The position numbers and the translations under genes are program-made. Below the pieces are notes generated by a model, which saw only the letters and a list, made by a program, of their open reading frames with translations, searched no databases and was not told the DNA's origin. A stretch of 61,189 bases of DNA, taken from NCBI GenBank assembly GCA_015488215.1, contig WFOE01000255.1:1-61189 (forward strand), given 5' to 3'. The stretch comes from Planctomycetales bacterium (GTDB lineage Bacteria > Planctomycetota > Planctomycetia > Pirellulales > S012-138). This document shows, piece by piece, positions 2,431 to 34,367 of this stretch. Each line of letters opens with the position of its first letter. The stretch's first letter is position 1.

Positions 2431-3786
2431 ATGAGCAAACCTTCGGACATCCGCATCCTGGAAGTTTCCTGTGCTACCCAGGAAGTACCCTACCGCACGC
2501 CCATCAAGTTCGGCGGACGCGTGGTGGACCACGGCGTGTTGCTGGACGTGGCCGTAGAGGTGGAAACCCGCTCCGGCCGTCGGGGGCGCGGCCAGGGCTC
2601 GATGCCCGTGGGAAACGCCTGGGCCTGGCCCACCCAGCAGCTTTCCGGCGACCAGACCCTCCAGGCCATGCTGGCTCTGGCTCCCCGGCTGGTGGAGCTG
2701 GCCCAGGGGTTGCAAGAGACGGCCCACCCCCTGCGGCTTTGCCATCTGCTAAGCCAGCAATACGAACAGGCTGCCCAGGAGGTCCGGCAACAGTTCGAGC
2801 TGCCCGAGCCTATTCCGCGGCTGGCCCAACTGGTGGTGGCCAGTCCGCTGGAAGCCGCTTTGTTCGACGCCCAGGGCAAAGCCCTGGAAACCAACAGCTA
2901 CAACCTGCTGGGACCGGAGCACTGCTCGGAGGACCTGTCCTGCTACCTCAATGACCAGTTCCGCGGCGAGTACCTGGATCGCTACACGCTGCGGGAACCC
3001 AAGCCCCGCATGCCGCTTTACCACCTGGTGGGCGCCCTGGACCCGCTGACCCAGGCCGAAGTAACCGAGCCGGTGGGCGACGGGCTGCCCGAAACCCTGG
3101 GCGAGTGGATCCTCCGGGACGGCCTGACCCATCTGAAAATCAAGCTGGCCGGAAACGATCTGGATTGGGACATCCAGCGCGTGCTGGGCGTGGAGCAAGT
3201 GGCCCAACAGGCCCAACGCCAGCGAGGCTGCCGGCAGTGGTTCTACTCGGTGGATTTCAACGAGCAGTGCGAATCGGTGGACTACGTGCTGGAGTTCCTG
3301 CGCCGCGTGGGCGAACAGTCCCCCGAGGCCCTGGAACGTATACAGTACATCGAACAGCCTACGCACAGCGATCTGGCCGCCCATCCAGAAAACCGCATGC
3401 ACCAGGCGGCCCAGCTCAAGCCGGTGGTGATTGACGAATCGCTGGTGGATTTCCAGTCGCTGCTGCTGGCCCGGGAACTGGGCTACTCCGGCGTGGCGCT
3501 GAAAGCCTGCAAGGGCCAGAGCGAAGCGCTGCTGGCCGGAGCCGCGGCGCAGAAGTACGGGATGTTCCTCTGCGTTCAGGACCTGACCTGCCCGGGCCGG
3601 TCGTTTCTCCATTCGGCTTCGCTGGCCGCCCGTATCCCCACCGTGGCGGCCATCGAAGGCAACGCCCGACAATACTGCCCAGCCGGCAATCGTGACTGGG
3701 AAGACCGCTACCCGGGCATGTTCCGCATCACCGACGGCACCGTGGAAACCGCCCTGCTGGACGGCCCGGGCCTGGGTGGATTCTAA
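2431..3786 (+). CDS. Enolase-superfamily (mandelate racemase / muconate cycloisomerase-like) protein
   Basis: The 451-residue protein has the layout of the mandelate racemase and muconate-lactonising enzyme families: an N-terminal capping domain, then a TIM barrel. In the barrel one can see LKIKLAG (candidate catalytic Lys), SVDFNEQ, YIEQPTHSD and VIDESL (candidate metal-binding Asp/Glu/Asp), then GVALKACKGQSEA (candidate second Lys). Members abstract a proton alpha to a carboxylate; the substrate (acid sugar, dipeptide or other) cannot be read from the sequence. The ATG at 2431 is preferred over an in-frame extension to 2320 because the protein opens with a normal family N-terminus from here. 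A close functional name such as dipeptide epimerase would be a guess. Confidence 0.85.
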   Translation: MSKPSDIRILEVSCATQEVPYRTPIKFGGRVVDHGVLLDVAVEVETRSGRRGRGQGSMPVGNAWAWPTQQLSGDQTLQAMLALAPRLVELAQGLQETAHPLRLCHLLSQQYEQAAQEVRQQFELPEPIPRLAQLVVASPLEAALFDAQGKALETNSYNLLGPEHCSEDLSCYLNDQFRGEYLDRYTLREPKPRMPLYHLVGALDPLTQAEVTEPVGDGLPETLGEWILRDGLTHLKIKLAGNDLDWDIQRVLGVEQVAQQAQRQRGCRQWFYSVDFNEQCESVDYVLEFLRRVGEQSPEALERIQYIEQPTHSDLAAHPENRMHQAAQLKPVVIDESLVDFQSLLLARELGYSGVALKACKGQSEALLAGAAAQKYGMFLCVQDLTCPGRSFLHSASLAARIPTVAAIEGNARQYCPAGNRDWEDRYPGMFRITDGTVETALLDGPGLGGF

Positions 3787-4044
3787 AGCGAAAGGCGGTC
3801 ACAAAACTTGCGTCCGCAGATGTTACGCCCGAGGATTGCAGCAACGCCTGGAGGCTTTGGTGACACGGTCTTAGCCTGGGGGAGTCCGGCTTTCGTCCTG
3901 CCTTGGCCCCCTTGCAGGCAATCGGCCAGGGCCGAAAACTGGTAAGAGTTGGGCGATTCGTGCCCCCGGCAACCGAAACGCCCTATTGTCGGCGGCCCGA
4001 GGAGCCGCCCCTTTGATTCACTGTTCAAGTTCGAGGGAACTCCC
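3787..4044. other. Intergenic leader of leuC
   Basis: This 258-base gap lies between two plus-strand genes. No gene is seen. The sequence AGGGA at about 4034-4038 sits at ribosome-binding distance from the GTG at 4045. Confidence 0.4.
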
Positions 4045-5460
4045 GTGCAAAACGGCCCCAAAACCCTGTTCGACAAAATCTGGGACGCCCACGTCGTGCA
4101 CCAGGAACCGGGCATGCAGACGATTCTCTACATCGACCTGCATCTGGTGCACGAAGTCACCAGCCCGCAGGCATTCGAGGGGCTCCGCCTGGCCGGACGC
4201 CGCGTGCGTCGGCCGGAGCTGACCGTGGCCACCGTGGACCACAACGTGCCCACGACGGATCGCAGTTTGCCGATTACCGATCCGGTGGCCCGCAAGCAGA
4301 TAGAAACTCTGCGGCAGAACTGCCGGGAGTTCGGCATCCGGCTCTACGACCTGGACGACCCCCGGCAGGGAATCGTTCACGTGATTGGTCCCGAGTTGGG
4401 TTACACCCAGCCGGGAATGACCATCGTTTGCGGGGACAGCCACACCAGCACGCACGGGGCGTTCGGGGCGTTGGCCTTCGGCATCGGCACCAGCGAAGTG
4501 GAGCACGTGCTGGCCACGCAGTGCCTGTTGCAAACGCGGCCCAAGACGATGGAAATCCGCGTCGAAGGCGAGCTGCCCCCGGGAATCACGGCCAAGGACC
4601 TGATTCTTTACATCATCGGCCGCATCGGCACCGGCGGCGGGACCGGCTACGCCGTGGAATACACCGGCAGCACCTTCCGCAACCTGAGCATGGAAGGGCG
4701 GATGACCGTCTGCAACATGTCGATTGAAGCCGGGGCTCGGGCCGGCATGATTGCCCCGGACGAAAAGACGTTCGACTACCTGCGCGGGCGGCCCATGGCT
4801 CCCCAGGGGGCCGAGTTCGACAAGGCCGTGGCCCGTTGGGAACAGTTGCCCACCGACCCCGGGGCCCGCTACGACAAATCGGTCCAGTTCCAGGCGGCCG
4901 AAGTGGCCCCGCAAGTTACCTGGGGCACGAACCCCGGGCAGGTGGTTTCGGTTACCGACGTGGTTCCGGACCCGGACCAGTTGCCCGACGAAAACGACCG
5001 CAAATCGGCTCGCCGGGCGCTGGAGTACATGGGTCTGGAGCCGGGCACTCCGATGACCGAGGTGCGTGTGGACCGGGTGTTTATCGGCTCATGCACCAAC
5101 AGCCGGATCGAAGACCTGCGGGAAGCGGCCCGCGTGGTCCGAGGCTACCGCGTCGCCCCGGGCGTGCAGGCGATGGTGGTCCCGGGCAGCGGACTGGTCA
5201 AACAGCAGGCCGAAGCCGAAGGGCTGGACCGCATTTTCCGCGAAGCGGGATTCGAGTGGCGGGAAGCCGGCTGTAGCATGTGCCTGGGCATGAACCCCGA
5301 CCAGCTTTCGCCGGGCCAGCGCTGCGCTTCGACTTCCAATCGCAACTTCGAAGGGCGCCAGGGCAAGGGGGGGCGCACCCACCTGGTTTCCCCGGCCATG
5401 GCTGCGGCCGCAGCCGTCACGGGCCATTTTGTGGACATTCGGCAGTGGGACTATCGCTGA
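4045..5460 (+). CDS. leuC: 3-isopropylmalate dehydratase large subunit
   Basis: LeuC with LeuD interconverts 2- and 3-isopropylmalate in leucine synthesis. The 471 residues from the GTG start match the usual length. It opens with [12 protein letters not shown], and carries [28 protein letters not shown], then [11 protein letters not shown] and [12 protein letters not shown], which supply the three cysteines of the 4Fe-4S cluster. The GTG at 4045 is chosen because a GAGGGA precedes it and the family N-terminus begins there; the frame stays open upstream to 3949 without family similarity. leuD, normally the next gene, is absent here: 240 bases of repeat-bearing spacer and the convergent map gene follow. 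Confidence 0.95.
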
Positions 5461-5560
5461 AGGCGTGGGGGCTTGGGAGCGTAGAGGCTTGGAGGGGGTG
5501 CTTTCGCACCGGGCAAGGATCGACCTGCGGCTTGCGCGTGGAGCTTCCGCTCCAGCGGAA
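5461..5560. repeat. Dispersed intergenic repeat, copy 1
   Basis: The spacer between the convergent leuC and map genes starts with a G-rich module (GGCGTGGGGGCTTGG, later GAGGCTTGGAGG) also present at 48340, 53565 and 61170. It continues with a short hairpin TGGAGCTTCCGCTCCA at 5539-5554 shared with the copies at 38.8, 40.0 and 53.6 kb. No coding frame here is credible. The placement between two gene ends would suit a bidirectional terminator, but no U-run follows the hairpin. Confidence 0.6.
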
Positions 5561-5702
5561 AAACAATCGTCCTCGTGCTCGTACTCGCAATCGGCAGCTC
5601 GTTTTCGATGGTCGAGAAACGCCGAGCTGGAGCGTCTGCGGGTGTGTTCCAGGACGACTGGCTGGGCACTTACTCCAGGCAAAGGGCATTTGAGATAGGC
5701 AC

Positions 5703-6518
5703 TCAAACCGTAAAGCCGAAGCGGCGGAGCCAGTCGCGTTCCTGGGGCTCGGGTGGTCCGGTCAGCACCCAGGTCCCCTTGGGCGTCAGGGCTACCGTGT
5801 GCTCCACGTGGGCTGCGGGAAGTCCGTCGGCGGTGACGACCGTCCAGCCGTCTTCCCGCACGCGAATCTGCTTCCCACCCAGAGCCAGGATCGGTTCCAC
5901 GGCCAGCACCAATCCCGGCTGCAAAGGGAAGTCAGCTCCGGTTCGGGCCAGTTGGGCCGGGTGGTTGGGCACATCAGGCCGTTCGTGCAACTGGCGACCG
6001 ATGCCGTGGCCCACGTAACCCTCCACGAGTGAAAACCCCCGGCGGCGGACGTGCGCGGCCATCGCCCGGGCCACCTCTCCCCAACGCGCCGCGCGGCCCA
6101 TCCGGTCGATGGCAAGCTGCAAGGTTTCGCGGGTGGCTTGGGCCAGTTGTTCCATGCGGGATGAAAGCGGCCCCACGGCAAGCAGCACCGCCGCATCGGC
6201 GCACCAGCCCTCCAGGCGGCAGCCGGTGTCGATGGTGAGCAAATCCCCGGGCTTGAGCCGCCGCGGGCCGGGAACGCCGTGGACGATTTCCTCGTTGACC
6301 GAAATGCAACTGACGGCTGGAAACCGGGTTCGCCCAGGACGGCCTTCAAACAGCGGCTCGGCGTCGCACCGCTGGAACACGTCCCGGATGACCTGGTCCA
6401 GCTCGGCGGTAGTTACCCCGGGCCGAACGCCCCGGCCGGCTTCGCGCAACGCCTGCCAGACGACCAGTCCGGCGCGGCGCATGCGGGTCAGTTGCTCGGG
6501 GGTTTTGAGCTGGTACAC
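5703..6518 (-). CDS. map: Methionine aminopeptidase, type I
   Basis: This enzyme removes the initiator Met from new proteins. The 271 residues form the pita-bread fold. The metal ligands are visible in TIDTGCRLEGWCADAA (two Asp), GHGIGRQLHE (His), and AVEPILALGG and a later Glu near the C-terminus. The start is a GTG at 6518. It is the last gene of the ribosomal cluster, 103 bases after secY; in most bacteria adk would lie between them, and here it does not. No rpmJ or infA follows. Confidence 0.95.
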   Translation of the reverse strand: MYQLKTPEQLTRMRRAGLVVWQALREAGRGVRPGVTTAELDQVIRDVFQRCDAEPLFEGRPGRTRFPAVSCISVNEEIVHGVPGPRRLKPGDLLTIDTGCRLEGWCADAAVLLAVGPLSSRMEQLAQATRETLQLAIDRMGRAARWGEVARAMAAHVRRRGFSLVEGYVGHGIGRQLHERPDVPNHPAQLARTGADFPLQPGLVLAVEPILALGGKQIRVREDGWTVVTADGLPAAHVEHTVALTPKGTWVLTGPPEPQERDWLRRFGFTV

Positions 6519-6621
6519 GGCGGCCCATCCCGCCGCAAGAGGGCATTATCCACGGCAAAGCCGGGAAACAGCCGGCCTTGGCTGGGACTTTGGCGTAGGA
6601 CCTTGGTTGGCGTGGGAGCGG

Positions 6622-7968
6622 CTAACCTTCGATCAGGCTGGGATAGTTACGCATGACCAGGTGGCTGTCGATCTTCTGCACCAGATCGAAGGCGACGCTG
6701 ACGGCAATCAGCAGTCCCGTACCGCCGTAGAAGCTGGCCAACTGCATGTCCACGTTCATCGCTCCGGAAATGAGCGTGGGCGTGATGGCCACCACGGCCA
6801 GGAAACCGGCACCCACGTAGGTAATGCGAACCATGACCTTTTCCAGGTACTCGGCGGTTCGCTTGCCAGGGCGGTAGCCTGGGATGAAGCTGCCGTGGTC
6901 CTTGAGGTTTTCGGCGATTTCCTTGGGGTTGAAGGTGATGGCCGTCCAGAAGTAGCAGAAGAAGTAGATGAAGGCCACGTAGGCCACGTTGTAGGTGAAC
7001 GAAGTGCCTCGCTGGAACGCATCGGCCAGGTCCGCCCAGAAGCTGCCCGGATAGAGCTGGCTCAAATACCGGAACAACATGGCCGGAAACAGCAGCAGGC
7101 TGCTGGCGAAGATAATGGGCATCACGCCCGCCTGGTTCAGCCGCAGCGGCAGATACTGTCGGGTGCCGCCGTAAACGCGGTGGCCGCGAACGTGCTTGGC
7201 GCTTTGCATGGGGATGCGGCGCTGGGCCCGATAGATGAACACCACGCCTACCACCACCCCGATAAACAGCAGCACCAGCACGAGCACTTTTTCCACGCCC
7301 ATGCTCGTGGGCGTGCCGCCCAGCACCGGCCCTTCGGTCAGCAGAGGGCCGAACAGTTTGAGCAACTGGTTGGGCATCCGGGCCAGGATACCGGCCATGA
7401 TGAGCAAGCTGATTCCGTTGCCGATGCCGAACTCGTCGATCTGCTCGCCAATCCACATCAGGAAGATGGTCCCGCAGGTCATAATCAGCACGCAGGCCAA
7501 CTGCGTGCCGAAGGGGAGCGAGTCGCCGACGAGGAACTCCGAGCGGACCATCCCCAGCGAAACCATGTAGCCGATGTAGGCCCAGCTCTGGCCCAGGCAG
7601 ATAAGCACGGTGGCGTACCGGGTGTACTGGTTGATCTTGCGGCGGCCACTTTCCCCTTCCTTTTGCAACTGTTCCAGCGGGGCCCAGACGCTGGCCAGCA
7701 GTTGGAAGATAATGGCGGCGGAGATGTAGGGCATAATGCCCAGGCCGAAGATGGTCGCCTGGCTCAACTGGCTGGCGGCGAACAGGGAAACCTGCTCGAT
7801 GAACGAGCCGAACACCCCCTGCTGGGAGAACAGGTCGGCTTTGGACGTGTCCATGATGGGCAGCGGAATGTGCCAGCCCACCCGATAGATGGCCAGCAAC
7901 AGCAGCGTGAGCAGAATCTTCTGCCGCAGCTCGGGGATGGTGAAGATAATCCGCAGTTTTTCGAACAT
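6622..7968 (-). CDS. secY: Preprotein translocase subunit SecY
   Basis: SecY forms the protein-conducting channel of the inner membrane with SecE and SecG. The 448-residue protein starts MFEKLRIIFTIPELRQKI and shows about ten hydrophobic segments. The signatures FGLGIMPYISAAIIFQLL and EFGIGNGISLLIMAGI are typical. The ATG at 7968 is chosen over upstream in-frame starts at 8025 and 7980 because the family N-terminus begins there. It follows rplO by 82 bases, the standard position. Confidence 0.97.
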   Translation of the reverse strand: MFEKLRIIFTIPELRQKILLTLLLLAIYRVGWHIPLPIMDTSKADLFSQQGVFGSFIEQVSLFAASQLSQATIFGLGIMPYISAAIIFQLLASVWAPLEQLQKEGESGRRKINQYTRYATVLICLGQSWAYIGYMVSLGMVRSEFLVGDSLPFGTQLACVLIMTCGTIFLMWIGEQIDEFGIGNGISLLIMAGILARMPNQLLKLFGPLLTEGPVLGGTPTSMGVEKVLVLVLLFIGVVVGVVFIYRAQRRIPMQSAKHVRGHRVYGGTRQYLPLRLNQAGVMPIIFASSLLLFPAMLFRYLSQLYPGSFWADLADAFQRGTSFTYNVAYVAFIYFFCYFWTAITFNPKEIAENLKDHGSFIPGYRPGKRTAEYLEKVMVRITYVGAGFLAVVAITPTLISGAMNVDMQLASFYGGTGLLIAVSVAFDLVQKIDSHLVMRNYPSLIEG

Positions 7969-18766: not shown

Positions 18767-20863
18767 ATGCTGCACCTTTGCCGCAACCTGTGGCCGCCCA
18801 GGGTCCGCTGGGATTTCGGCCTGGGCCTAGGGCTGGTCGTCGCCCTGGCTCTGGCCCAGGTGGTGGGTTTACACCAGGCCGCTTCGCACCCTTTGGCCCC
18901 CAGACGGATGCATCCGGTCGTTTTTCCCACCGATCACCCCTACGATCCGGACTGGCTGGAAGTGCAATGGCTGCTCAACACCAAATGTTTCGGATGCCAT
19001 CGGCCCGGGACCAAGCAGTCCGACCTGTCCAGCTACGAAGCCCTGCTGCAAGCCCGTACCCAGGACGGCGAACCGGTGGTGGTGCCCTTTGAGCCGGACG
19101 AGTCGCCCCTTTGGCACTACGTAGCCTGGAATCCCCAGGCGGATCCGGACTCCACCGAGTCCGACACGCCGCTAATGCCGCCGGAAATGGAACACTGGCT
19201 CACCGCCGGTCAGCTCCGGGTGCTACGCCGCTGGATTGCCCGCGGAGCGCTGAAATACCGCCTGCCGCCCGGGTGCAAGCCGCGTCCGGTGGAGCTGGAT
19301 TTCCCCTCGGCCAAACAGTGCAAAGCGTGCCACCCGCGGCAGTACGAGCAGTGGTCCCGGTCGATGCACGCCTACGCCCAGCACAGCCCGGTGATGGAAG
19401 CCTTCACCCGCACGCTGCTGGAGCGGACCTCGGGCACGCTGGGCACGTTCTGCACCCGGTGCCATACGCCCATCGGCACCTCGCTCGGCGAAGGGGGCAA
19501 TTTGCCCAACGTGTATCGCTCGCGGCTGTCGATGGAAGGGGTCACCTGTGTCGTGTGCCATCGGATGAAGCAGCGGCACTACAAAAGCAGCGGCCGCCAG
19601 TTCATCCAGCCCGGCGACGTGCTGACGCAGTGCATCTACGGCCCGTTTGAAGACCCGGTACGGGTACCCGGGGACCACCCTTCGCAGGGGCGGCCGTTTA
19701 TCAAAACTTCGGAGTTCTGCGGCACTTGCCACGACGTGATAAGCCCCCAGGGCGTGCGGCTGGAGGAGGCTTTCAGCGAATGGCGCAACTCCCCGGCCGC
19801 CAAGCAGGGAATCACTTGCCAGCACTGCCACATGGGCCCGGTGCCCGGCGTGCCGGTTCCGGACCAGCAGCGCCCGCTGGGCCGTGCGGCCGAAGTGCCG
19901 GGCGTGCCGCCGGAAAAGTTGCCCCTGCGGCGGCTTTCGGACCACTCGTTCGTGGGCCCGGACTACTCGCTGCTGCCCGATACCGAGTTCCCCCACAAAC
20001 TGGACTGGATGTACGAGGTGGACTACCGCCAGCCGGAGCGGCTTACCCCCTACCAGCAAAAAACCCTGGAACAACTGCGGCGCCGCAACCGCCGCGACTT
20101 GGAAATCGCCCGGACGCTGCGCTACCAACTGCTCAAAAACGCTGCCCGGCTGGAGTGGACCTTGCCCCGGCAGGTGAAACCCGGCAGCCGGGTCAAGCTC
20201 CGCGTGGCCGTGCGGAGTTTGTTCTCAGGGCACAACTTTCCCACCGGCTTTACGGCCGAACGGCAACTTTGGGTCCAAGTGGTGGTTCGGGACGGCCAAG
20301 GCCGGGTGGTGTTCCGTTCCGGCGACCTGGATCCCAACGGCGATCTGCGCGACGAGCACAGCTACTTTGTGCAAACGGGCAAACTGCCCGCGGATCACCA
20401 ACTGCTGAACTTCCAGAGCAAGTTCATCGTGCTAGGCGTACGCGGCACCGAGCGGCCGGTCATCCTGGCCGTGAACCGCGATCTGAGCCCGCTGAACATC
20501 CTCCGGCCCGCGGTAGGGATTTCCCAGTCGTTTGGCCGTCCGCAGGTGTTCCGGATCGCCAAGGCGAGTCTGCCTCCGCTGGGGCGAAGGGAACGTGTGT
20601 ACCGCTTCCGCGCCCCGCAGGAATGCGGTCCGCTGGTGGTGGAAGCCCGGTTGTGTTTCCGCCACCTGCCCCCTTCGCTGCTGGACCGGATTGGCATCCC
20701 GCACCTGAAACACCTGCTGGAAGTCGTCGTAATCGACCAGCGTCGGGGAGTAATCCAGGTGGACACGTCCCCGGCGGTTTCGGCGGGGCCCACTCGGTCG
20801 CATCCGGCGGAAGTGGTTCCCCCGCCCCAGAACACGGGGTGGTTCCGGTTCCTCGTTCGTTAG
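18767..20863 (+). CDS. Six-haem c-type cytochrome, membrane-anchored or secreted
   Basis: The 698-residue protein has an N-terminal hydrophobic segment (about residues 16-36) for export, then six CxxCH haem-binding motifs: CFGCH (74), CKACH (185), CTRCH (229), CVVCH (261), CGTCH (318) and CQHCH (351). The first lies in a planctomycete-type cytochrome domain (LLNTKCFGCHRPG...PPEMEHWLTAGQLRVLRRWIARGA); the other five resemble the cytochrome c554/NapC-like multihaem families. The C-terminal half (about 400-698) has no haem motif and looks like beta-sandwich. It should work in periplasmic electron transfer; the redox partner is unknown. The stop is just before the barrel gene, so the two are probably co-transcribed. 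Confidence 0.85.
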   Translation: MLHLCRNLWPPRVRWDFGLGLGLVVALALAQVVGLHQAASHPLAPRRMHPVVFPTDHPYDPDWLEVQWLLNTKCFGCHRPGTKQSDLSSYEALLQARTQDGEPVVVPFEPDESPLWHYVAWNPQADPDSTESDTPLMPPEMEHWLTAGQLRVLRRWIARGALKYRLPPGCKPRPVELDFPSAKQCKACHPRQYEQWSRSMHAYAQHSPVMEAFTRTLLERTSGTLGTFCTRCHTPIGTSLGEGGNLPNVYRSRLSMEGVTCVVCHRMKQRHYKSSGRQFIQPGDVLTQCIYGPFEDPVRVPGDHPSQGRPFIKTSEFCGTCHDVISPQGVRLEEAFSEWRNSPAAKQGITCQHCHMGPVPGVPVPDQQRPLGRAAEVPGVPPEKLPLRRLSDHSFVGPDYSLLPDTEFPHKLDWMYEVDYRQPERLTPYQQKTLEQLRRRNRRDLEIARTLRYQLLKNAARLEWTLPRQVKPGSRVKLRVAVRSLFSGHNFPTGFTAERQLWVQVVVRDGQGRVVFRSGDLDPNGDLRDEHSYFVQTGKLPADHQLLNFQSKFIVLGVRGTERPVILAVNRDLSPLNILRPAVGISQSFGRPQVFRIAKASLPPLGRRERVYRFRAPQECGPLVVEARLCFRHLPPSLLDRIGIPHLKHLLEVVVIDQRRGVIQVDTSPAVSAGPTRSHPAEVVPPPQNTGWFRFLVR

Positions 20864-25573: not shown

Positions 25574-28500
25574 TTATTCGCCTCCGGCCACCACCTGCGG
25601 CCGGTAGAGCGGCAAGTGCCGGTAATAGACTTCCAGGATGAGCAGATGCATGGCCGTTACGTAGATGCGGCCCCCTTCGGCTCCCCAGCGGTCGGGCAGT
25701 CGGCCCAGCGGGTCCCAACTTCCGGCCAGAGGGCCTTCCTGCACCTGAGTGTTTACCAACAGTGCCCGCTGGCGGCGGTTCCAGCGGTCCCAATGCTCGC
25801 CCCCGGCGTGGAACATCACCTGCGTGGCGTAGTACCAGTAGTAGGTGTCCCGCTGCAATCGTCCGGGAGAGCCGAAGCTGGGCAGGTTGCGGCCCAGGTA
25901 TCGGGCTCCGCGTTGGATCATGGTGCTTTGGGGCGAAGTGCCCAGGTAAAGCTGCATCAGCAGGGCTTCGGCCGTCATGGCCCGACTGGGCGTGCGCTGG
26001 TGCTGGTAGCGAGCCTTGGGCCGATAGACATACAGGGCCACGTCCTCCGGCCACTGGGCCTGTTGCAGCCAGGTGCGTAGCCGGGAATAAACCTCCTCGG
26101 GTACGTTCAGCCCGGCCATCTCCGCGCTTTTCAGCGCCATGAGTTGCCAGCCGCTGACGGAAGTGTCGGTGCCTACCCTCGGGGCATAGCGCCAACCGCC
26201 CAAGGTCGGATGCTGCGCGGCGACGATAAAGTCCACGGCTCGCTGCGCCGGGCGGCGAAGCTGCGGGTCCTGGGTCATTCCGTAGGCTTCGCACAAGGCG
26301 ATGGCCGCAATCCCGTGGCTGTAAAGCCAGGCGTACCGCGACCCGCCGGTGAACAGATCCCCGTTGGGCTTCTGGCGTTCGACCAGCCACTTCAGCCCCG
26401 CGGCGACTTCTTGCCGGTACTTGCCCTGCTGGTGGGTGTAGCCTGCGCCCAGGAACGCAAGCAGGGCCAATCCGGTGGCGGCGGTGTCCGATTGCATGCG
26501 GCCAAGCCCCACGCCGGGCGGGTAGCCCTTGCCCTGGGCAAACCGGTGCAGGCTCCAGCTTCCGTCGGGCATCTGGTGTCGGGCCAGAAAGGCCAGACCG
26601 GCTTCGACGGCTTTTTCGGTCTGGGGCGAGCCGCCGCGACTTTGGGCCACTTGCCCCCGCCGCCGCGGATCCCGGCCGCGGAACGCCGGGGCGGGGATGG
26701 CTTCCACCTCGGGAGCCAGTTCCACGTCGGCCAGCGGAGCCCGCTCCAAACGGAACCGGTGCGAGGTAGTAGCCACGGTCGATGCGTCGGGTCGGGCCCG
26801 ATCCAGCGGCAGTCCCAACTCACCGGGCCGGTCCAGCGCCACCCCGGGGGTGCCTTCTCGGGCCACTACGTCCACGGCCAGGTGGTCTTCCCGATGCCTT
26901 CGCATCCCGGCCGCTTGTGTGTTCGGCGTCCCCGAGGAGGCCATTTGGCTCAGCTCCTGCGGGACCGGGCCCAGCTCCTCGGCGTTGATTTCGGCCGTGA
27001 TGTACCCGGTGCCAGTGCTTCTGGCCAGCGTGGTCCCTTGCCGGGAACCGCCGGAAAGCAGCGGGCGTCCCTCCCGGCGTGTTCCTCCCTGGGGCGAAGC
27101 GCTGCCGGGGGCCGCCGTAACCGCCGCGCTTGGCTCGTCCCCTTGGGCGGCTAGGGTTCCCGATACACCTGCTGCCGCTCCGCTGCGGCGAGCCAAAGTG
27201 CTTGCTGCCGCGGTCGGGTCAGCCGGGGGCCCAGTCGCCGCGGCCCCGCTGCTCTGGCCCGGGGGGCCTGCCAACTGGGCGGCTTTTAGCCCAGGAAGTC
27301 CCACACCGGGCAGGGTGCTGGCTCGGGCCAATCGAGCACCGGCGTTTCTGTTGGTTCCGGGGCTGCCGTCCGAAGTTGCCCCCTGAGTGCTACGCTGAGC
27401 CGCCGGACCGCCGGGGGAACCGGCCCCAAGAGCCACACCGGGTGCCGGTTCGTCCGATTGAGTCGCCTCCGGCTGGGCTGCCGTGCCACGGGCCAGACGC
27501 CCCGGGGCCGAACCGCCACCGGGAGACTGAGCCTGCGGCCTGCGCGGGCTGGCCCCGCTGCCCTGCCCTCCCGGGGCGTTTGCTTGGGCCAGCGCAGCTT
27601 GCGGCCCGGCAACCGCACCGCCGGCGGCTGCCGTGTTTCGGGCCAGGGCAATCCCGGCCCGGGAGCCGACCCGGGGGGTTGCCTCTCCGGAGCCAGAGCT
27701 ACGCGAAACGGCCGCTTGGCCGGCCGATCCTGTTTGCGGATTGCCGCTTTCCCCGACCGAAGCGGCCAACTGGGCCGCAGCTCCACCGGATGAGGAGGTC
27801 GCCTGGCGTCGGGCTCCTGTGGCCGGGGCCCCCGAACCGGCAAACGCGGCGGCCGGATTGGACTCTTTGCCCGTGGCCAGCGCCGCCAACGCGGCTTGGG
27901 ACTGGGGAGCCGCTTGTCCGGCGGCGGCTTGCCGGCTCAGGCGAGCCAGGCGTCCCCCAACGCTTCCCACCGTGGGGGCACGGCCGCTTCTGGTCCGGGA
28001 GCCGCTTGCTGCCGAAGCCCCCAGGGCTTCAGTCGCGGCGGCGGGAGCCCCCTGGGGACTTTGTGTTCCCGAAACGGCTGCCGCGGCCCCTTGGCGGCTG
28101 GCCAGACGCGGAGCCGAGGTGCTGCTTGGTCCGGCTGATTGCGCGGCCGCAGAGGCGCTAGTCCCGGAGCGTGTCGCCCCTTGGGCGGGCAAGGCGGCCG
28201 CTTGGGCCTGGGCCACCGCACCGATTCCCCCGGCCTGAGCCCGCTGCAACGCCACGCGCCGCGGCGAGCGATTACCCGGCTGCGCAGCAGCCGCGGGGGT
28301 TCTTCGCGTAGCCGCCGAAGCAGTTACCGCTCCCGGGGCCGGTCCGGGGGCGGCTTCCGCACCGGCCAGCGTTCCGGTCAGAGGAGTCGCTGGGCCGGTG
28401 GTCGCGCTGCGGCGAGGAGCGTTTCGGCCAAGCGAAGCGACTGCTCGGGCCGCCTGATTGGTCCGGGCGGCGGCCACGGCGGCCTGCTCTGCACGCGGAG

Positions 28501-29698
28501 CAGCCGGGGCGGCCTGCGGGCTTTGCCGAGCCAGCGTGCTGCGGGAGTGAGATTGCAACTGCGGCGTGCGGCTTTCGCTGCGGCGGGCAATCGCTCCGGA
28601 AGCGGCTGTGGCGGGGCTTTCCATCCGGGGAGCTTGCTGCGGGACCGGAACGGGTGTCAACCGGGCCTGCTCCCGGCGGCGGCGAATCGCCCCAGCCGGA
28701 GCTTGCGCCCGGGCGGGACGTTCGGCGGCGGCTACCGGCCTCTGGACACTGGCAGGGGCGGCCGTCGCTTGCGGCGCTGCAGAGGCGGTGGTGCGTCCCG
28801 CTAGACGTCGCGAGGTGTTCAGCCGCGGCGTCGCTTCGCGGCGGTTTGCTCGCCGCACCGCTTGTGGTTCCAGGGCCGGTTGCGGAACGGGGGATCGGGT
28901 CATGGCCGTTTGCACTTGTTGCGAAGGCCCGACGGCCTGCTTGCGCACCTGGACGTTCGGTTGGGCCCGCATGGCCCGGGGCTGCCGCGCTTGCTGCCCC
29001 TGGGCCATCTGGGCTTGCAGCCGGGGACGAGGTTCCCGCACGGCAAGCTCGGCACGGCGAATCCGCTGCCCGCGCCGCTCGGCACTCTGGCGGCTGGCGC
29101 TGGGAACGGCCCGCTGCATCGCCATCCGGTTCACTGAACCGGCAGCCGGAACCGGTTCCTGCTGCGATTGCTGCGGCGTGGGGCGTGCCTGTTGCGTGGG
29201 CTGGGCGGTCCGTTGCACTTCCACCTGCGGGGCGTTTTCCGGCCGGGGGACTTCTTCGGGCCGGGCCACTTCCGGATCGATCAACTGCTCGTGGGCGGCT
29301 CGGCCGTAGTCCGGGAAGGTAATCTTCGGCGTTTCGTCCACCCAGGCGCTGGGCCGATGGCGACCCGTTTGCAAATAGACCGGCACCACGTACAGCACCA
29401 CGGCCAGCCACAGATGAAGTCCCAGGGCCAGCAGCACGGCCAGTTGCATCCGCCGTGCGCCGCGCCGGGTGCTGACGTAAGCCGTGCCCAGAATCAACGC
29501 CACCACGCTGGCGGCCAGCCCCAGCAGATGGGTCCAGGCGTTGCGATACCAGACCGCAGCGTCGAAATCCCCCACCGCGACGATCAGCCCGGCAATGCAC
29601 CCGGCCAGAATGACCAGCGTGCCGTTGATCGGCCAGAGCTGTTCGTCGAACTCGGCCGTCTGAGGCTGGACCTTGCGGACGACGCGTCGGGTGGGCAT
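25574..29698 (-). CDS. Giant membrane protein: three N-terminal helices, about 880-residue low-complexity linker, squalene-cyclase-like C-terminus
   Basis: The 1374 residues fall in three parts. Residues 1-110 hold three hydrophobic helices (about 27-43, 55-75, 84-108). Residues about 140-1020 are Ala/Arg/Gln/Ser/Pro-rich and almost surely disordered; motifs such as LARxxAA and (S/T)G(A/T)xA recur loosely. Residues about 1027-1374 resemble the prenyltransferase and squalene-cyclase alpha/alpha barrel repeats, with QMPDGSWSLH, QKPNGDLF, HPTLGGWRYAP, SDTAATGLALLAFLGAG and PLAGSWDP. The acidic DxDD motif of class II cyclases is not seen, so catalysis is doubtful. It follows exbD by seven bases in one unit with exbB and a TPR protein. 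The role is unknown; coupling to the ExbB/D motor is inference. Confidence 0.85.
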   Translation of the reverse strand: MPTRRVVRKVQPQTAEFDEQLWPINGTLVILAGCIAGLIVAVGDFDAAVWYRNAWTHLLGLAASVVALILGTAYVSTRRGARRMQLAVLLALGLHLWLAVVLYVVPVYLQTGRHRPSAWVDETPKITFPDYGRAAHEQLIDPEVARPEEVPRPENAPQVEVQRTAQPTQQARPTPQQSQQEPVPAAGSVNRMAMQRAVPSASRQSAERRGQRIRRAELAVREPRPRLQAQMAQGQQARQPRAMRAQPNVQVRKQAVGPSQQVQTAMTRSPVPQPALEPQAVRRANRREATPRLNTSRRLAGRTTASAAPQATAAPASVQRPVAAAERPARAQAPAGAIRRRREQARLTPVPVPQQAPRMESPATAASGAIARRSESRTPQLQSHSRSTLARQSPQAAPAAPRAEQAAVAAARTNQAARAVASLGRNAPRRSATTGPATPLTGTLAGAEAAPGPAPGAVTASAATRRTPAAAAQPGNRSPRRVALQRAQAGGIGAVAQAQAAALPAQGATRSGTSASAAAQSAGPSSTSAPRLASRQGAAAAVSGTQSPQGAPAAATEALGASAASGSRTRSGRAPTVGSVGGRLARLSRQAAAGQAAPQSQAALAALATGKESNPAAAFAGSGAPATGARRQATSSSGGAAAQLAASVGESGNPQTGSAGQAAVSRSSGSGEATPRVGSRAGIALARNTAAAGGAVAGPQAALAQANAPGGQGSGASPRRPQAQSPGGGSAPGRLARGTAAQPEATQSDEPAPGVALGAGSPGGPAAQRSTQGATSDGSPGTNRNAGARLARASTLPGVGLPGLKAAQLAGPPGQSSGAAATGPPADPTAAASTLARRSGAAAGVSGTLAAQGDEPSAAVTAAPGSASPQGGTRREGRPLLSGGSRQGTTLARSTGTGYITAEINAEELGPVPQELSQMASSGTPNTQAAGMRRHREDHLAVDVVAREGTPGVALDRPGELGLPLDRARPDASTVATTSHRFRLERAPLADVELAPEVEAIPAPAFRGRDPRRRGQVAQSRGGSPQTEKAVEAGLAFLARHQMPDGSWSLHRFAQGKGYPPGVGLGRMQSDTAATGLALLAFLGAGYTHQQGKYRQEVAAGLKWLVERQKPNGDLFTGGSRYAWLYSHGIAAIALCEAYGMTQDPQLRRPAQRAVDFIVAAQHPTLGGWRYAPRVGTDTSVSGWQLMALKSAEMAGLNVPEEVYSRLRTWLQQAQWPEDVALYVYRPKARYQHQRTPSRAMTAEALLMQLYLGTSPQSTMIQRGARYLGRNLPSFGSPGRLQRDTYYWYYATQVMFHAGGEHWDRWNRRQRALLVNTQVQEGPLAGSWDPLGRLPDRWGAEGGRIYVTAMHLLILEVYYRHLPLYRPQVVAGGE

Positions 29699-29705
29699 GG
29701 GAGGA

Positions 29706-30128
29706 TTAGGAGCCTTCGGGTTCTTTGGTCATCACGTAATAGTCGCGAATCCCCGCCTTGTTGCACAGGTCCATGACAGTCACGATTGGCTGCCAGCGGC
29801 AGCGGCGATCCGCCCGAATCCCCACGCGTTGCCGGCCCGGGTTGTTGGCCGCCGCCTGGCGAAGGATGCGCAGCAATTGCTGGGCGTTCACACGGTCCCG
29901 ACCTACGAAATACCGCCCCTGGTCGTCGATGTTGACGAAGATTTCCCGGGGCCGTGCAGTCAGCGGGGCGGCTTCGGCCGCTTCAGGCAGCGCCACGGCC
30001 AGCGAACGCTCTTCTTCCTCGAACCGCGTGGCCACCAGAAAGAAAATCAGCAGCAGGAACACCACGTCGATCAGCGGCGTGAGGCTCAACGCCCCGGTGG
30101 CTCGGCTCTTGCGAATCTCGACGGCCAT
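29706..30128 (-). CDS. exbD: ExbD/TolR-family biopolymer transport protein
   Basis: The 140-residue protein has a short cytoplasmic N-terminus, one transmembrane helix LTPLIDVVFLLLIFFLVATRF (about 16-36) with the conserved Asp21 that carries protons in ExbD and TolR, and a periplasmic domain. It pairs with the ExbB-like protein encoded just upstream; the two genes overlap by 43 bases. In Gram-negative bacteria ExbB/D or TolQ/R use the proton gradient to drive TonB or TolA. No TonB or TolA gene is seen nearby. Confidence 0.93.
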   Translation of the reverse strand: MAVEIRKSRATGALSLTPLIDVVFLLLIFFLVATRFEEEERSLAVALPEAAEAAPLTARPREIFVNIDDQGRYFVGRDRVNAQQLLRILRQAAANNPGRQRVGIRADRRCRWQPIVTVMDLCNKAGIRDYYVMTKEPEGS

Positions 30129-31126
30129 GGCTTTTCCCAGGCACGAGGGCTCGTTGTGTCAGCTCCGTTTGGGCGCCGTGGGGGTCTGTGCGGCCGGCTG
30201 GCGTTTGCCGTCCGGCTTGGGTTCTTCGGCTGCGGCGGTTCGTGCGGGGCGCAGTCTCCTTCGAACCGCTCCAACTGCGGCATCATGTTCAGCAGCAGCT
30301 CGTCCACTTCGCGGAAAAGGGACTGGATGCGCCCTTCGAACCAGTGGGCCAGCACCGCTGCAGGGATGGCCACGGCCAGCCCGGCGAACGTGGTTACCAG
30401 TGCCGTGTAGATGCCGTCGGCCAACTGCTCGGCCTTGTTGGCCTGGGCATAACCGGTGGCGGTGAGAAAGAACGCTTTGATCATGCCCCAGACCGTGCCC
30501 AGCAATCCCAGCAGCGGCGTGATGGCCGCGGCCAGCAGCAGCGGGCGAACGTTGGCGTAGAGCTTTTCGGCTTCGCGTTGCGAGGCGTCCTTTACGGCCG
30601 CTTCCACCTCGGCATGGGGGCGGCCCACCTTGAGCATCGCCGCCCGAATCACGTTGGAAGCCGCGCTGGGCAACCGCTGGCAGAGCCGATAGACCTTCCG
30701 CGGCTCCAGCCCTCCGTCGGACTGGGACATCTGGCCCAACTGCTCCACCAGCTCCGGCGGCAGGACGCGATGCCGACGCAGGGCCAGCGCCCGCTCGATC
30801 CCGAAGACGGCCACCACCAGGGACATCAAGACGATGGGCACCATCAGCCATCCGCCGCGGAACATCAGCTCCAACAGGTTCAACTGCGGCGATGGCTCCT
30901 CGTCTGTCGCTTGTGGCTCGGGCTGGTCCGCTTGCGGTTCCGCCTCGCCTTCTTCCGAAGGAGCGAACGCGGCCTCAAAGCGGCGTTGGGCCTCGCCGGC
31001 CGGGCCCGGCTCCTCCTGGGCAGGCGATGGCCAGGGGGCCAAGAGCGCCACGCCCAGCAACAGCATCAGCCAGGCCAATGCCATGCGGCGAGGGCTTGTT
31101 TGTCCGATGCGATGGTTCACGAACAC
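30086..31126 (-). CDS. exbB: MotA/TolQ/ExbB-family proton channel protein with N-terminal extension
   Basis: The 346 residues begin with a signal-like segment (MALAWLMLLLGVALLAPWPSPAQ) and an acidic linker of about 50 residues (Glu/Pro/Gln-rich). The channel domain follows: helix 1 GGWLMVPIVLMSLVVAVFGIERAL, a cytoplasmic loop, then LLLAAAITPLLGLLGTVWGMIKAFF and ALVTTFAGLAVAIPAAVLAHWFEG. The GTG at 31126 is used; the ATG at 31084 is an alternative that would begin at the signal segment. The C-terminal tail past residue 310 is read in the frame overlapping exbD. Extended ExbB proteins of this type are common in planctomycetes (recollection). Confidence 0.92.
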   Translation of the reverse strand: MFVNHRIGQTSPRRMALAWLMLLLGVALLAPWPSPAQEEPGPAGEAQRRFEAAFAPSEEGEAEPQADQPEPQATDEEPSPQLNLLELMFRGGWLMVPIVLMSLVVAVFGIERALALRRHRVLPPELVEQLGQMSQSDGGLEPRKVYRLCQRLPSAASNVIRAAMLKVGRPHAEVEAAVKDASQREAEKLYANVRPLLLAAAITPLLGLLGTVWGMIKAFFLTATGYAQANKAEQLADGIYTALVTTFAGLAVAIPAAVLAHWFEGRIQSLFREVDELLLNMMPQLERFEGDCAPHEPPQPKNPSRTANASRPHRPPRRPNGADTTSPRAWEKPWPSRFARAEPPGR

Positions 31127-31172
31127 GGTTTGGGGCCTCTTCCTGTACAGGTCCGGGGAATTCGTGCGGCGG

Positions 31173-34100
31173 TTACGGTTGGATTTTTCGGAGGGCTTCC
31201 AGTCGCTTGCGGGCCTCGGCCACTTTGTTGCTTTGCGGGAACTTCTGAATCAGCTCTTCGTAACATTCGCGGGCCTGTTTCACCTTGCGCAGTACCTCGA
31301 AGCACCGGGCGGCCTCGTACAGACTGTTGGCCTGCCACCGCGGATAGCTGTACCCATAGGCGGCCCGGAAATAGTGACGAATCGCTTCCCGGTGCTGCTT
31401 CTGGCCGAAGTAGTATTCGCCCAGCATGAACTCACTACGGGCGGCCACTTCCCGGGCAGTCATTTCGGCCACGCGGCGGTAGAGCCGGACCGCTTCTTGC
31501 TTCTTGCCCGAGTAGTCCAGGGCGTAGGCCCGCTCGAACAGCAGCTCCGGCAGCAGTTGGGCTTTCTGCCAGCGGGTTTCAACCTCTTGGAGCAGCTTCA
31601 GCGTCACGTCGTACTTTTCCAGTTGGTTTGCCGCCTGGGCCGCATGCAGCAGGGCCAACTGGCGGTAGCTCTCCTGCGAAGGGGAGCCCAACTGGCGGTA
31701 CCAGTGGAGCACCTGCGGGTAATCCTCCTGGGCAAACGCACACTCTTCGGCCAGGAAGCGCGCATCGGCAGCCAGTTTGCCCGAGGGGAAGCGTTTCAAC
31801 TGCCGGGCGAGAACCTCCAGAGCTTTGTCGTATTGTTTCTGTTCATAGAGAGCCCACGCCCATTTGTGAAGCGCCTGCTCGGCCAGCTCCCCGGCGGCCT
31901 GAGGGTCGTACTCCGGAGCGTCGGCCGATTGTTCCAGGCGACGTAGCGCCTGCTGATAGAGCCGGGCGGCTTCGGCGTACTTCTTTTCCTGGTAGCGGGC
32001 TTCGGCCAGATGGAATAGGGCTTCCGGCACCAGGGGACTTTGGGGGAACTCCTTGGCCAGCCGGGCAAACGCCGCCAGGGCTTTTTGCTCCTGGCCCGAT
32101 GAGCGATAGGCCCAAGCCAGCTCGTACAGCGCCTTGTGCCGCTGAGGATAGTCTTTATCCTCCTGGAGCAGTTGTTCCAACAGGGAAATGGCCTCCTTCC
32201 ATTGCTTTTGCTCCACGTGGCACAAGGCCAGGAAGTACCGGCCCTGGGCACGCGCGTTTCCTTGGGGGGCCGTAGCCAGAAAACGCTTTAGTTCCTGGAT
32301 TGCTTCCGGGTACCGCTTCAGGTTGAACAGGGCCAGCCCTCGGCCCAGGCGCGCTTCGGCGGCCAGTTTGTGCTGGGGGAACTTTTCCAGCAGCGCTTCC
32401 AGGTCCTGCAAAGCGGCCTGGTTGTTTCCCGAGGCCAACTGCAACAACCCCCGCCGCAGCAAGGCGTAGGGTACCCAGGGGCTTTTGGGCCACAGGGCCA
32501 GCACCTGGCCGTAGGCTTCCAGGGCTTTGGCCCGGCGCCCGGCCGCAGCGGCGTACTGGCCCAGGCGGTAGGAGGCTTCGGCCGCAAGCGGGCTTTGCGG
32601 AAACCGTTGCAACAGCTCCTCCAGGGTGGCGACGGCCCTGGCGTGCTCTTTCTGTTGCGAAAGCACAAAGCCCAACAAAAGCAACGTGCGGTCCAACCCC
32701 GGCCAAGCAGGCTCGATTTCCTTGGCCTTCTCCAGGGCCTGGCGGGCCAGGTCGTACTTTTGCTGTTTGACGTAGGCGCTGCCGAGCCAGTGCCAGGCTT
32801 CCCCTTGGCGAGCCGCGGGCAAGCGGTGCTCAAGGGCCTTGTTCAGCAGCACCACGGCCTGGTCGTGTTTGCCGCCCAAGTGGCAGGCCACCCCGTGACG
32901 CAGCAGCCAGAGCCCGCGTTCTTTATGTTCCGGGTAGGCGTTTTCCAGTTGCTCGAAAGCTCGGGCGGCTTCCTGGTACTTCTTACCCACCAGCATCGAT
33001 TCGGCCAGCACGAACGCCACGTCGGCTCCCAGGGAATGTTGGGGCCAGCGGCGGCGGAAGTCCCGAGCCAACTGCTCCGCCCGGCCCGGCTGGTCTGTTT
33101 CCAGCGCAGCCAGAGCGGCCGCGTACTGGGCCTCTGGAGCCAGGCGATGTTCGGGATGTTCTTTCACTAGTTGTAGATAGACGGCGATGGAATCCTTTTT
33201 CCGTTCCGGCTGCTGGTACAGGGCGTCGCCCCGGTCCATCAGCAGTTCCGCTTGCCACTGCTTGGGCACGCCGGGGGCTTGGAGCGCTTTTTGGGCCACC
33301 TGCAAGGCTTTCTGCGGACGGTTTTGTTTCAGGTAGCAGCGAGCCAGCCAGTGGGCGGCTTCGGCCCCCTGGGGCTGCTTGTCCGCGGGAACTTGCCCCA
33401 GCACGGCAATCGCCTGGTCGAACTTTCCGGCCAGGTAGTAGCACTTGCCTGCTTCGAGCCGGGCCGCCGGAACCAGCGGGGAACGGGGAAACCGCTCCGG
33501 CACGCGCTGATACGCCTCGGCGGCTTCCAGCAACTTCTGACGCGCAGCCAGCATGTCCCCTACCCGCAACTGGGCAAAATCGGCCAAGGCGAACCCGGGC
33601 ACTTCAGCCGCTTGGGCGAAGTCCTCCTGGGCAGCGGCGTGTTTTCCCTGGGCGGCACGTACCTCGCCGCGACGCAGTTGCACTTCGGCTCGCAAGGGAT
33701 GCCGCTTATACGACTGCAAGAACCGGGAGAAAACCGCTTCGGCCTCGGCCCAGTGTTTCTGCTCCTGGTGGGCGTAGCCCAGGTTGTAAAGCGCCGCGGA
33801 GACCAGAGGGCTCTGGGGCAACTTTTCCAGCAGCGTTTGATACGCCGCGGCGGCTTTGTCCCATTGCCGAGCGGTGATGTAACATTCGCCCTGATAGAAG
33901 AGTGCCCGGTCCAATTGGGAGCTCGTAGGATACCGCTTGACGAACATTTCCAGGGTCTGGGCCGCCTGCTCCAACGCCTGGGCGTTCCCCTTGGCGGCCA
34001 TGTAGCGGGCAATGCCCAGGTGCAGCCACGCCTGCTCGGCAATTTTTTGCTTCCCGTGTTGGCGAACCACCTGGTCGAGCACTTCGACGGCTTTCTGCGG

Positions 34101-34367
34101 CTGGTCCAGGCTGATGTAGCAGATGCCCAGGTAGGTCATCGCCTGGGGGGCACGAGGGTGCTTCGGATACGCTTTGAGGAACCGCCGCCATTCCTCGGCG
34201 GCCAGCTCGTAGGCCCGGCGGTTGAAAAGCGCCGCGGCCGAGTTGTAAAGCCGCACGGCCTGGGCCTGCGAGGGCGGTTCCGGCGGGGAAGACTCTTGAG
34301 CCACCAGGCCCCCCCGTCCCAGGCAAAGCGCAATACACAACCCGACTGCCGTAAGAAATTGTCTCAT
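31173..34367 (-). CDS. Large secreted tetratricopeptide-repeat protein
   Basis: The 1064-residue protein starts MRQFLTAVGLCIALCLGRGG, a signal peptide of about 24 residues, and then consists almost wholly of TPR units with the usual W-LG-Y-A-F-A-P pattern, for instance EAQYAAALAALETDQPGRAEQL and ALYNLGYAHQEQKHWAEAEAVF. It resembles the YbgF/CpoB and outer-membrane-assembly TPR classes in repeat type but is much longer. The ATG at 34367 is chosen over 34430 because the signal peptide begins there. Gln, Lys and Ala dominate. It precedes exbB by 46 bases and is likely the first gene of that operon; a periplasmic scaffold role is inference. Confidence 0.9.
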   Translation of the reverse strand: MRQFLTAVGLCIALCLGRGGLVAQESSPPEPPSQAQAVRLYNSAAALFNRRAYELAAEEWRRFLKAYPKHPRAPQAMTYLGICYISLDQPQKAVEVLDQVVRQHGKQKIAEQAWLHLGIARYMAAKGNAQALEQAAQTLEMFVKRYPTSSQLDRALFYQGECYITARQWDKAAAAYQTLLEKLPQSPLVSAALYNLGYAHQEQKHWAEAEAVFSRFLQSYKRHPLRAEVQLRRGEVRAAQGKHAAAQEDFAQAAEVPGFALADFAQLRVGDMLAARQKLLEAAEAYQRVPERFPRSPLVPAARLEAGKCYYLAGKFDQAIAVLGQVPADKQPQGAEAAHWLARCYLKQNRPQKALQVAQKALQAPGVPKQWQAELLMDRGDALYQQPERKKDSIAVYLQLVKEHPEHRLAPEAQYAAALAALETDQPGRAEQLARDFRRRWPQHSLGADVAFVLAESMLVGKKYQEAARAFEQLENAYPEHKERGLWLLRHGVACHLGGKHDQAVVLLNKALEHRLPAARQGEAWHWLGSAYVKQQKYDLARQALEKAKEIEPAWPGLDRTLLLLGFVLSQQKEHARAVATLEELLQRFPQSPLAAEASYRLGQYAAAAGRRAKALEAYGQVLALWPKSPWVPYALLRRGLLQLASGNNQAALQDLEALLEKFPQHKLAAEARLGRGLALFNLKRYPEAIQELKRFLATAPQGNARAQGRYFLALCHVEQKQWKEAISLLEQLLQEDKDYPQRHKALYELAWAYRSSGQEQKALAAFARLAKEFPQSPLVPEALFHLAEARYQEKKYAEAARLYQQALRRLEQSADAPEYDPQAAGELAEQALHKWAWALYEQKQYDKALEVLARQLKRFPSGKLAADARFLAEECAFAQEDYPQVLHWYRQLGSPSQESYRQLALLHAAQAANQLEKYDVTLKLLQEVETRWQKAQLLPELLFERAYALDYSGKKQEAVRLYRRVAEMTAREVAARSEFMLGEYYFGQKQHREAIRHYFRAAYGYSYPRWQANSLYEAARCFEVLRKVKQARECYEELIQKFPQSNKVAEARKRLEALRKIQP

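Follow-up and report, generated by a model that had tools for sequence, protein, structure and literature searches.

A planctomycete TPR-ExbB-ExbD unit with a toroid-headed giant protein, a probable proton-driven force transducer

The four-gene unit and the conservation of its order

The window, i.e., the whole analysed stretch of 61,189 nucleotides of contig WFOE01000255.1, belongs to a Planctomycetales bacterium whose assembly comprises 4.29 Mb in 303 contigs. Four minus-strand genes lie here in the order TPR-exbB-exbD-giant; 46 bases separate TPR from exbB and 7 bases exbD from the giant gene, whereas exbB and exbD overlap by 43 bases. Coordinates and strand were checked, and the layout given in an earlier note on this DNA was reproduced in full. 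The TPR gene (31173..34367) starts with the ATG at 34367 and encodes ~1064 aa, with a signal peptide followed by TPR repeats up to the end of the protein (Pfam TPR_6, 1.9e-80). The exbB gene (30086..31126) was read as 346 aa from a GTG; this start is uncertain, with the ATG codons at 31084 or 31066 as alternatives. Its product carries an N-terminal signal-like segment and three TM helices and matches MotA_ExbB (PF01618, 3.7e-24). The exbD gene (29706..30128; 140 aa; PF02472, 1.2e-26) specifies a single TM helix with the proton-binding Asp21 and a periplasmic domain. The fourth gene (25574..29698) encodes the giant putative transducer of 1374 aa, all features of which are given below on the minus strand. 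Genes for a pyrimidine nucleoside phosphorylase and an M50 protease adjoin the unit.

An essential question is whether these genes belong together or whether their neighbourhood is an inherited accident without any functional link. Relatives of the giant's tip were found by protein search in all 58 near genomes and in 256 of 294 genomes sampled phylum-wide. Eighty named planctomycete loci were surveyed (Blastopirellula, Rhodopirellula, Rubripirellula, Stieleria, Neorhodopirellula, Roseimaritima, Thermogutta, Fuerstiella and others), 50 of which had enough upstream sequence for the order to be scored: it was intact in 37, partial in nine and reduced to the giant alone in four. Thus, conservation of the order in related planctomycetes, proposed in the earlier note as a check, was borne out. 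The neighbourhood comparison revealed no flanking genes common to the locus set, and a larger operon extending beyond the four genes was rejected on this ground. Because the order is intact in so many loci and the flanks are not conserved, the link between the four genes goes beyond chance. Loss of part of the order in 13 of the 50 loci speaks for an accident of inheritance; however, different families of Pirellulales and Planctomycetaceae have kept the order despite turnover of the flanks, split blocks remain in the genome, and a second paralogous four-gene set exists. We therefore disfavour this explanation and regard it as highly improbable.

Six broken-order genomes were checked, and in five of them the missing genes sit as a separate block elsewhere: a detached TPR-exbB-exbD block was located in G009, G012, G029 and G008, and in G018 TPR-exbB lies apart, with exbD still next to the giant. 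In G038, the giant adjoins the TPR gene without exbBD between them; a close exbB orthologue was looked for in this genome and not found, and the motor may be borrowed.

In the tree, 20 of the 22 heads of the unit described here (system A) form one clade with support of 99/93, and two propeller-bearing giants are placed just outside it. These giants (L063 and L083) have a TolB-like PD40 propeller at their start, followed by a single TM helix ahead of the S-x3-H helix described below, and in L063 TPR-exbB-exbD is still found upstream. The genome under study harbors seven more tip-bearing genes. A second TPR-exbB-exbD-toroid set, referred to as system B (L071, own genome C107, 4512-11440), encodes a 718-aa short-arm transducer with an S-x3-H helix; system B forms its own clade (100/100) and likewise occurs in G038, G008 and L203, and it adjoins system A, in inverted orientation, in L153 and L154. 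Twenty paralogues were retrieved from other genomes, and 19 of them have S-x3-H or S-x3-N in the TM helix ahead of the head together with a shorter arm (L203 was judged by eye). A third arrangement, in which toroid transducers lie downstream of exbB-exbD-exbD, was seen in L187, L195 and L196. In L074 (own genome C43, 3308-10107), a 1592-aa TPR protein is followed by exbB-exbD-exbD, and a toroid gene was not found there. The soluble Tat-type proteins of L072 and L073 (own genome C158 and C260) consist of the toroid alone.

Membrane helices, D-box-like strand and motor residues

The earlier note had assigned three N-terminal helices to the giant, and AlphaFold2 agrees, modelling them (pLDDT 78) at residues 21-42 (29573..29638), 54-75 (29474..29539) and 82-113 (29360..29455). 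The first two are also indicated by hydropathy, and the third, of the TonB/TolA type, by the family alignment. The topology is compatible with the positive-inside rule: the loop RRGARR precedes helix 3, and the loop DFDAAVWYRN is periplasmic. TonB has one TM helix, and the two extra helices of the giant are unaccounted for by a TonB-like reading.

Docking of TonB and TolA on the respective motor is mediated by a Ser-x3-His-x6-Leu-x3-Ser helix, the Ser and His of which touch a Ser and a Trp of ExbB/TolQ TM1 (cryo-EM, PMC12215075). To describe the corresponding positions in the giants, a helix-3 profile with both motif columns masked was used, which aligned 86 of 92 orthologues. Motif position 0 was Ser in 68 of the 86, Cys in nine, Ala in seven and Gly in two; position 4 was His in 77, Asn in seven and Tyr in two. 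The background frequency of S-x3-H was 2.0% of 2598 other hydrophobic segments. The giant of the window reads Ala91-x3-His95 (29414..29428), with Ala instead of the Ser found at the first motif position in most relatives. The Leu and the last Ser of the SHLS motif are not generally kept among the giants. Replacement of TonB His20 by Asn is reported as fully functional in its stead, according to the title of Swayne & Postle (2011) as cited in PMC8928145. On the motor side, the TM1 Ser (Ser102) is retained in 64 of 65 aligned ExbBs, and the ExbBs of this family do not conserve the Trp through which E. coli ExbB completes the network of contacts. The sole ExbB without the TM1 Ser has Ala (L050, 7791-8861), and its giant (3161-7333) reads A-x3-Y; this double change is a single, anecdotal event and the only case used from a co-variation scan of His/Asn giants against ExbB columns.

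In TonB, a strand past the TM helix is captured by the ExbD dimer, the E. coli D-box strand comprising residues 46-49 (PMC10907165). A D-box-like strand, KITFPDY, is present in the window giant at residues 125-131 (29306..29326), 30 residues past His95; in relatives, VTLPDY, VTIPEY or KTVPEY occurs ~30-33 residues past the motif His. The strict pattern was matched in 35 of 83 giants (42%), compared with 4 of 1283 arm tiles, and 30 of these 35 matches fall 30-33 residues after the His.

The residues of the proton path are intact. In ExbB, the pore residues Thr211 and Thr246 are both 99% conserved and Pro255 is 93% conserved; ExbD Asp21 is 100% conserved in 80 relatives. Since the Thr pair and the Asp are kept to this extent, the ExbB/ExbD motor should conduct protons, judging from the E. 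coli proteins.

The disordered arm and the toroid head

The earlier note had also described a long disordered arm ending in a folded alpha/alpha barrel, and this description held. The arm, recognised by composition (residues 132-1022, 26633..29305), is ~890 residues long and contains 23% Ala, 11% Arg, 11% Gly and 10% Pro, with Trp and Cys absent. Within the family, arm length ranges from 206 to 1769 residues, and close relatives may be hundreds of residues apart, as expected of a tether. In L099 and L109, the giants comprise ~2290 aa, of which the arm takes up close to 1800 residues. The head (residues 1023-1374, 25577..26632) is predicted by AlphaFold2 to be a 12-helix (alpha/alpha)6 toroid (pLDDT 94, pTM 0.92), in accordance with Foldseek and PF13243. 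The solved structures closest to it in fold are those of GH76 mannanases, MstE, squalene-hopene cyclases and sugar epimerases, with TM ~0.6 and identity of 10-17%. Profile searches gave no TonB_C match and Pfam no vWA match for the giant. Forty polar or aromatic residues of the head are nearly invariant, making a ligand or partner site on the predicted toroid likely. At the mouth of the barrel, as defined by our own criterion, the invariant residues show a modest enrichment (p 0.011), which is too slight for us to propose an active site.

These properties lead to the question of whether the giant could be a membrane-anchored enzyme, either a terpene/prenyl cyclase or a glycan enzyme, that shares an operon with the motor by chance. 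Matches to hopene-cyclase HMMs, including a partial SQHop_cyclase_C match at residues 1024-1114 (Pfam, 1.4e-8), the nearly invariant residues with their modest enrichment at the mouth, and the existence of soluble Tat-type relatives are all compatible with catalysis. However, the type II terpene cyclase motif DxDD was found in none of 60 relatives, the co-occurrence with the motor persists in split loci, and an enzyme would leave the S-x3-H helix, the D-box-like strand and the long arm unexplained. We consider an enzyme quite unlikely, and terpene cyclase identity in particular was set aside on account of the missing DxDD. Thus, the "cyclase-like" tip of the earlier note is acceptable as regards the fold and the QW motifs but not the catalytic motif. 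Compared with squalene-hopene and MstE-type cyclases and the (alpha/alpha)6 barrels of GH76 enzymes and epimerases, the head shares the fold and QW-like motifs; it differs in having no DxDD, in its predicted periplasmic location and in being tethered to a motor.

Relation to Ton, Tol and vWA systems and a possible mechanism

The unit resembles the ExbB-ExbD-TonB system in its motor pair, the S-x3-H helix followed by a D-box-like strand, the Pro-containing arm and the presence of a C-terminal head. It differs from TonB in having three TM helices instead of one, an arm several times longer, an (alpha/alpha)6 toroid in place of TonB_C and a TPR gene in the operon. With TolQ-TolR-TolA and CpoB it shares a single operon for motor, transducer and TPR protein and a TM motif resembling S18-x3-H22 of TolA; unlike that system, it has neither TolB/Pal nor the TolA C-terminal domain, and its TPR protein is far larger than CpoB. 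By the criterion of the C-terminal domain, the giant is a member of neither the TonB nor the TolA family. In Vibrio TonB2, an ExbBD-TonB system likewise cannot do without a TPR protein, TtpD2, although the head is an ordinary TonB one and the function is iron uptake (PMC6957404).

The closest parallel is provided by vWA-headed force transducers, which have SHLS helices and whose genes share operons with tolQR and TPR genes in PVC bacteria, including planctomycetes (Williams-Jones et al. 2025, PMC12204202). The TPR-tolQ-tolR-transducer order, the Ser-His half of the SHLS helix, the disordered linker, a non-TonB head and planctomycete carriers are common to both; the vWA systems have a vWA head, two tolR genes and a domain II of ~100 residues, whereas the unit has a toroid, a single exbD and an arm that is hundreds of residues long. 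Neither the main text of PMC12204202 nor the other open-licence papers searched mention a head of the toroid or cyclase type. The unit is a class parallel to the vWA transducers and distinct from them, and ExbBD-type motors would have been fitted with another unrelated head besides the vWA fold.

Another possibility is that the unit is the planctomycete Tol-Pal system, with the giant as TolA, keeping the outer membrane attached during division. The TPR protein scores as tol_pal_ybgF (3.8e-110), exbB and exbD score best against TolQ/TolR, and giants of two relatives bear the TolB-like propeller. However, the YbgF score stems from generic TPR repeats, the giant has no TolA-type C-terminal domain, and pal is not adjacent to the unit. 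Moreover, TolB_N was not found in the own genome, and Pal exceeded the cut-off in none of 20 genomes, the sole Pal-like match of the own genome being a MotB. This MotB belongs to a flagellar motA-motB-fliL-fliN-like cluster identified by eye (L076, own genome C231, 12040-15347). A classical Tol-Pal system was set aside, TolB and Pal not having been found, and the Tol-Pal interpretation as a whole seems unlikely to us.

The unit is, with high probability, a proton-driven force transducer that works like TonB/TolA and carries a new head. The gene set, order, co-occurrence, motifs and motor residues were obtained directly, and the folds are predicted. The energy-transducing machine envisaged in the earlier note is supported by the conserved order, the Ser-x3-His motif, the D-box-like strand and the intact proton-path residues. 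In the mechanism that we propose, the giant would sit beside the motor through its three helices, helix 3 docking on ExbB TM1 via Ser/Ala91-x3-His95, and the ExbD dimer could grasp the strand at residues 125-131. The motor would then pull or reel the long disordered arm, which would carry the toroid across the wide periplasm to a partner in the outer membrane or cell wall; whatever the giant pulls on is probably located at the outer membrane. The toroid, having no terpene-cyclase active site, would stand in for the TonB/TolA C-terminal domain, and the secreted TPR protein may be a periplasmic partner comparable to TtpD2 in Vibrio TonB2 or CpoB in Tol-Pal.

What could such a transducer serve? 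As a more specific version of the force-transducer reading, it may power PMF-dependent import of macromolecules, e.g., polysaccharides, into the enlarged periplasm, with the head holding on to either the substrate or a gate in the outer membrane. The planctomycete periplasm can be greatly enlarged, and planctomycetes take labelled dextran of 10-40 kDa into it in a manner abolished by CCCP (PMC5394234), an observation that would bear on the unit if the species studied there carry it. Among 20 genomes, canonical TonB_C was found in 12 and receptor plugs in 14, a patchy distribution compared with the ubiquity of toroid proteins in near genomes, and the closest folds include glycan-acting (alpha/alpha)6 enzymes. 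On the other hand, the fold similarity is remote, and the genes next to the unit include no conserved receptor, CAZyme or porin. Macromolecule uptake is an attractive possibility as the function, though we hold the import version in this specific form to be doubtful; between envelope stability and macromolecule uptake as the physiological role, we see the two as about equally likely. The unit offers concrete candidate machinery for energy-dependent macromolecule entry into the wide planctomycete periplasm (PMC5394234), and it suggests a likely role for a large protein family otherwise matched only to squalene cyclase models. It is more speculative, and on balance improbable, that toroid-headed, very long transducers, several per genome, have replaced much of the Ton/Tol repertoire throughout the phylum, with the four-gene unit as the engine of envelope tethering or of PMF-dependent uptake of macromolecules and the arm fitted in length to the very wide periplasm.

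The absence of TonB claimed in the earlier note holds at the locus but not genome-wide, as a single TonB_C gene occurs elsewhere in the genome, as do two plugs of TonB-dependent receptors. Within the window, a multihaem cytochrome-like protein with a PSCyt1 domain is encoded at 18767-20863 on the plus strand.
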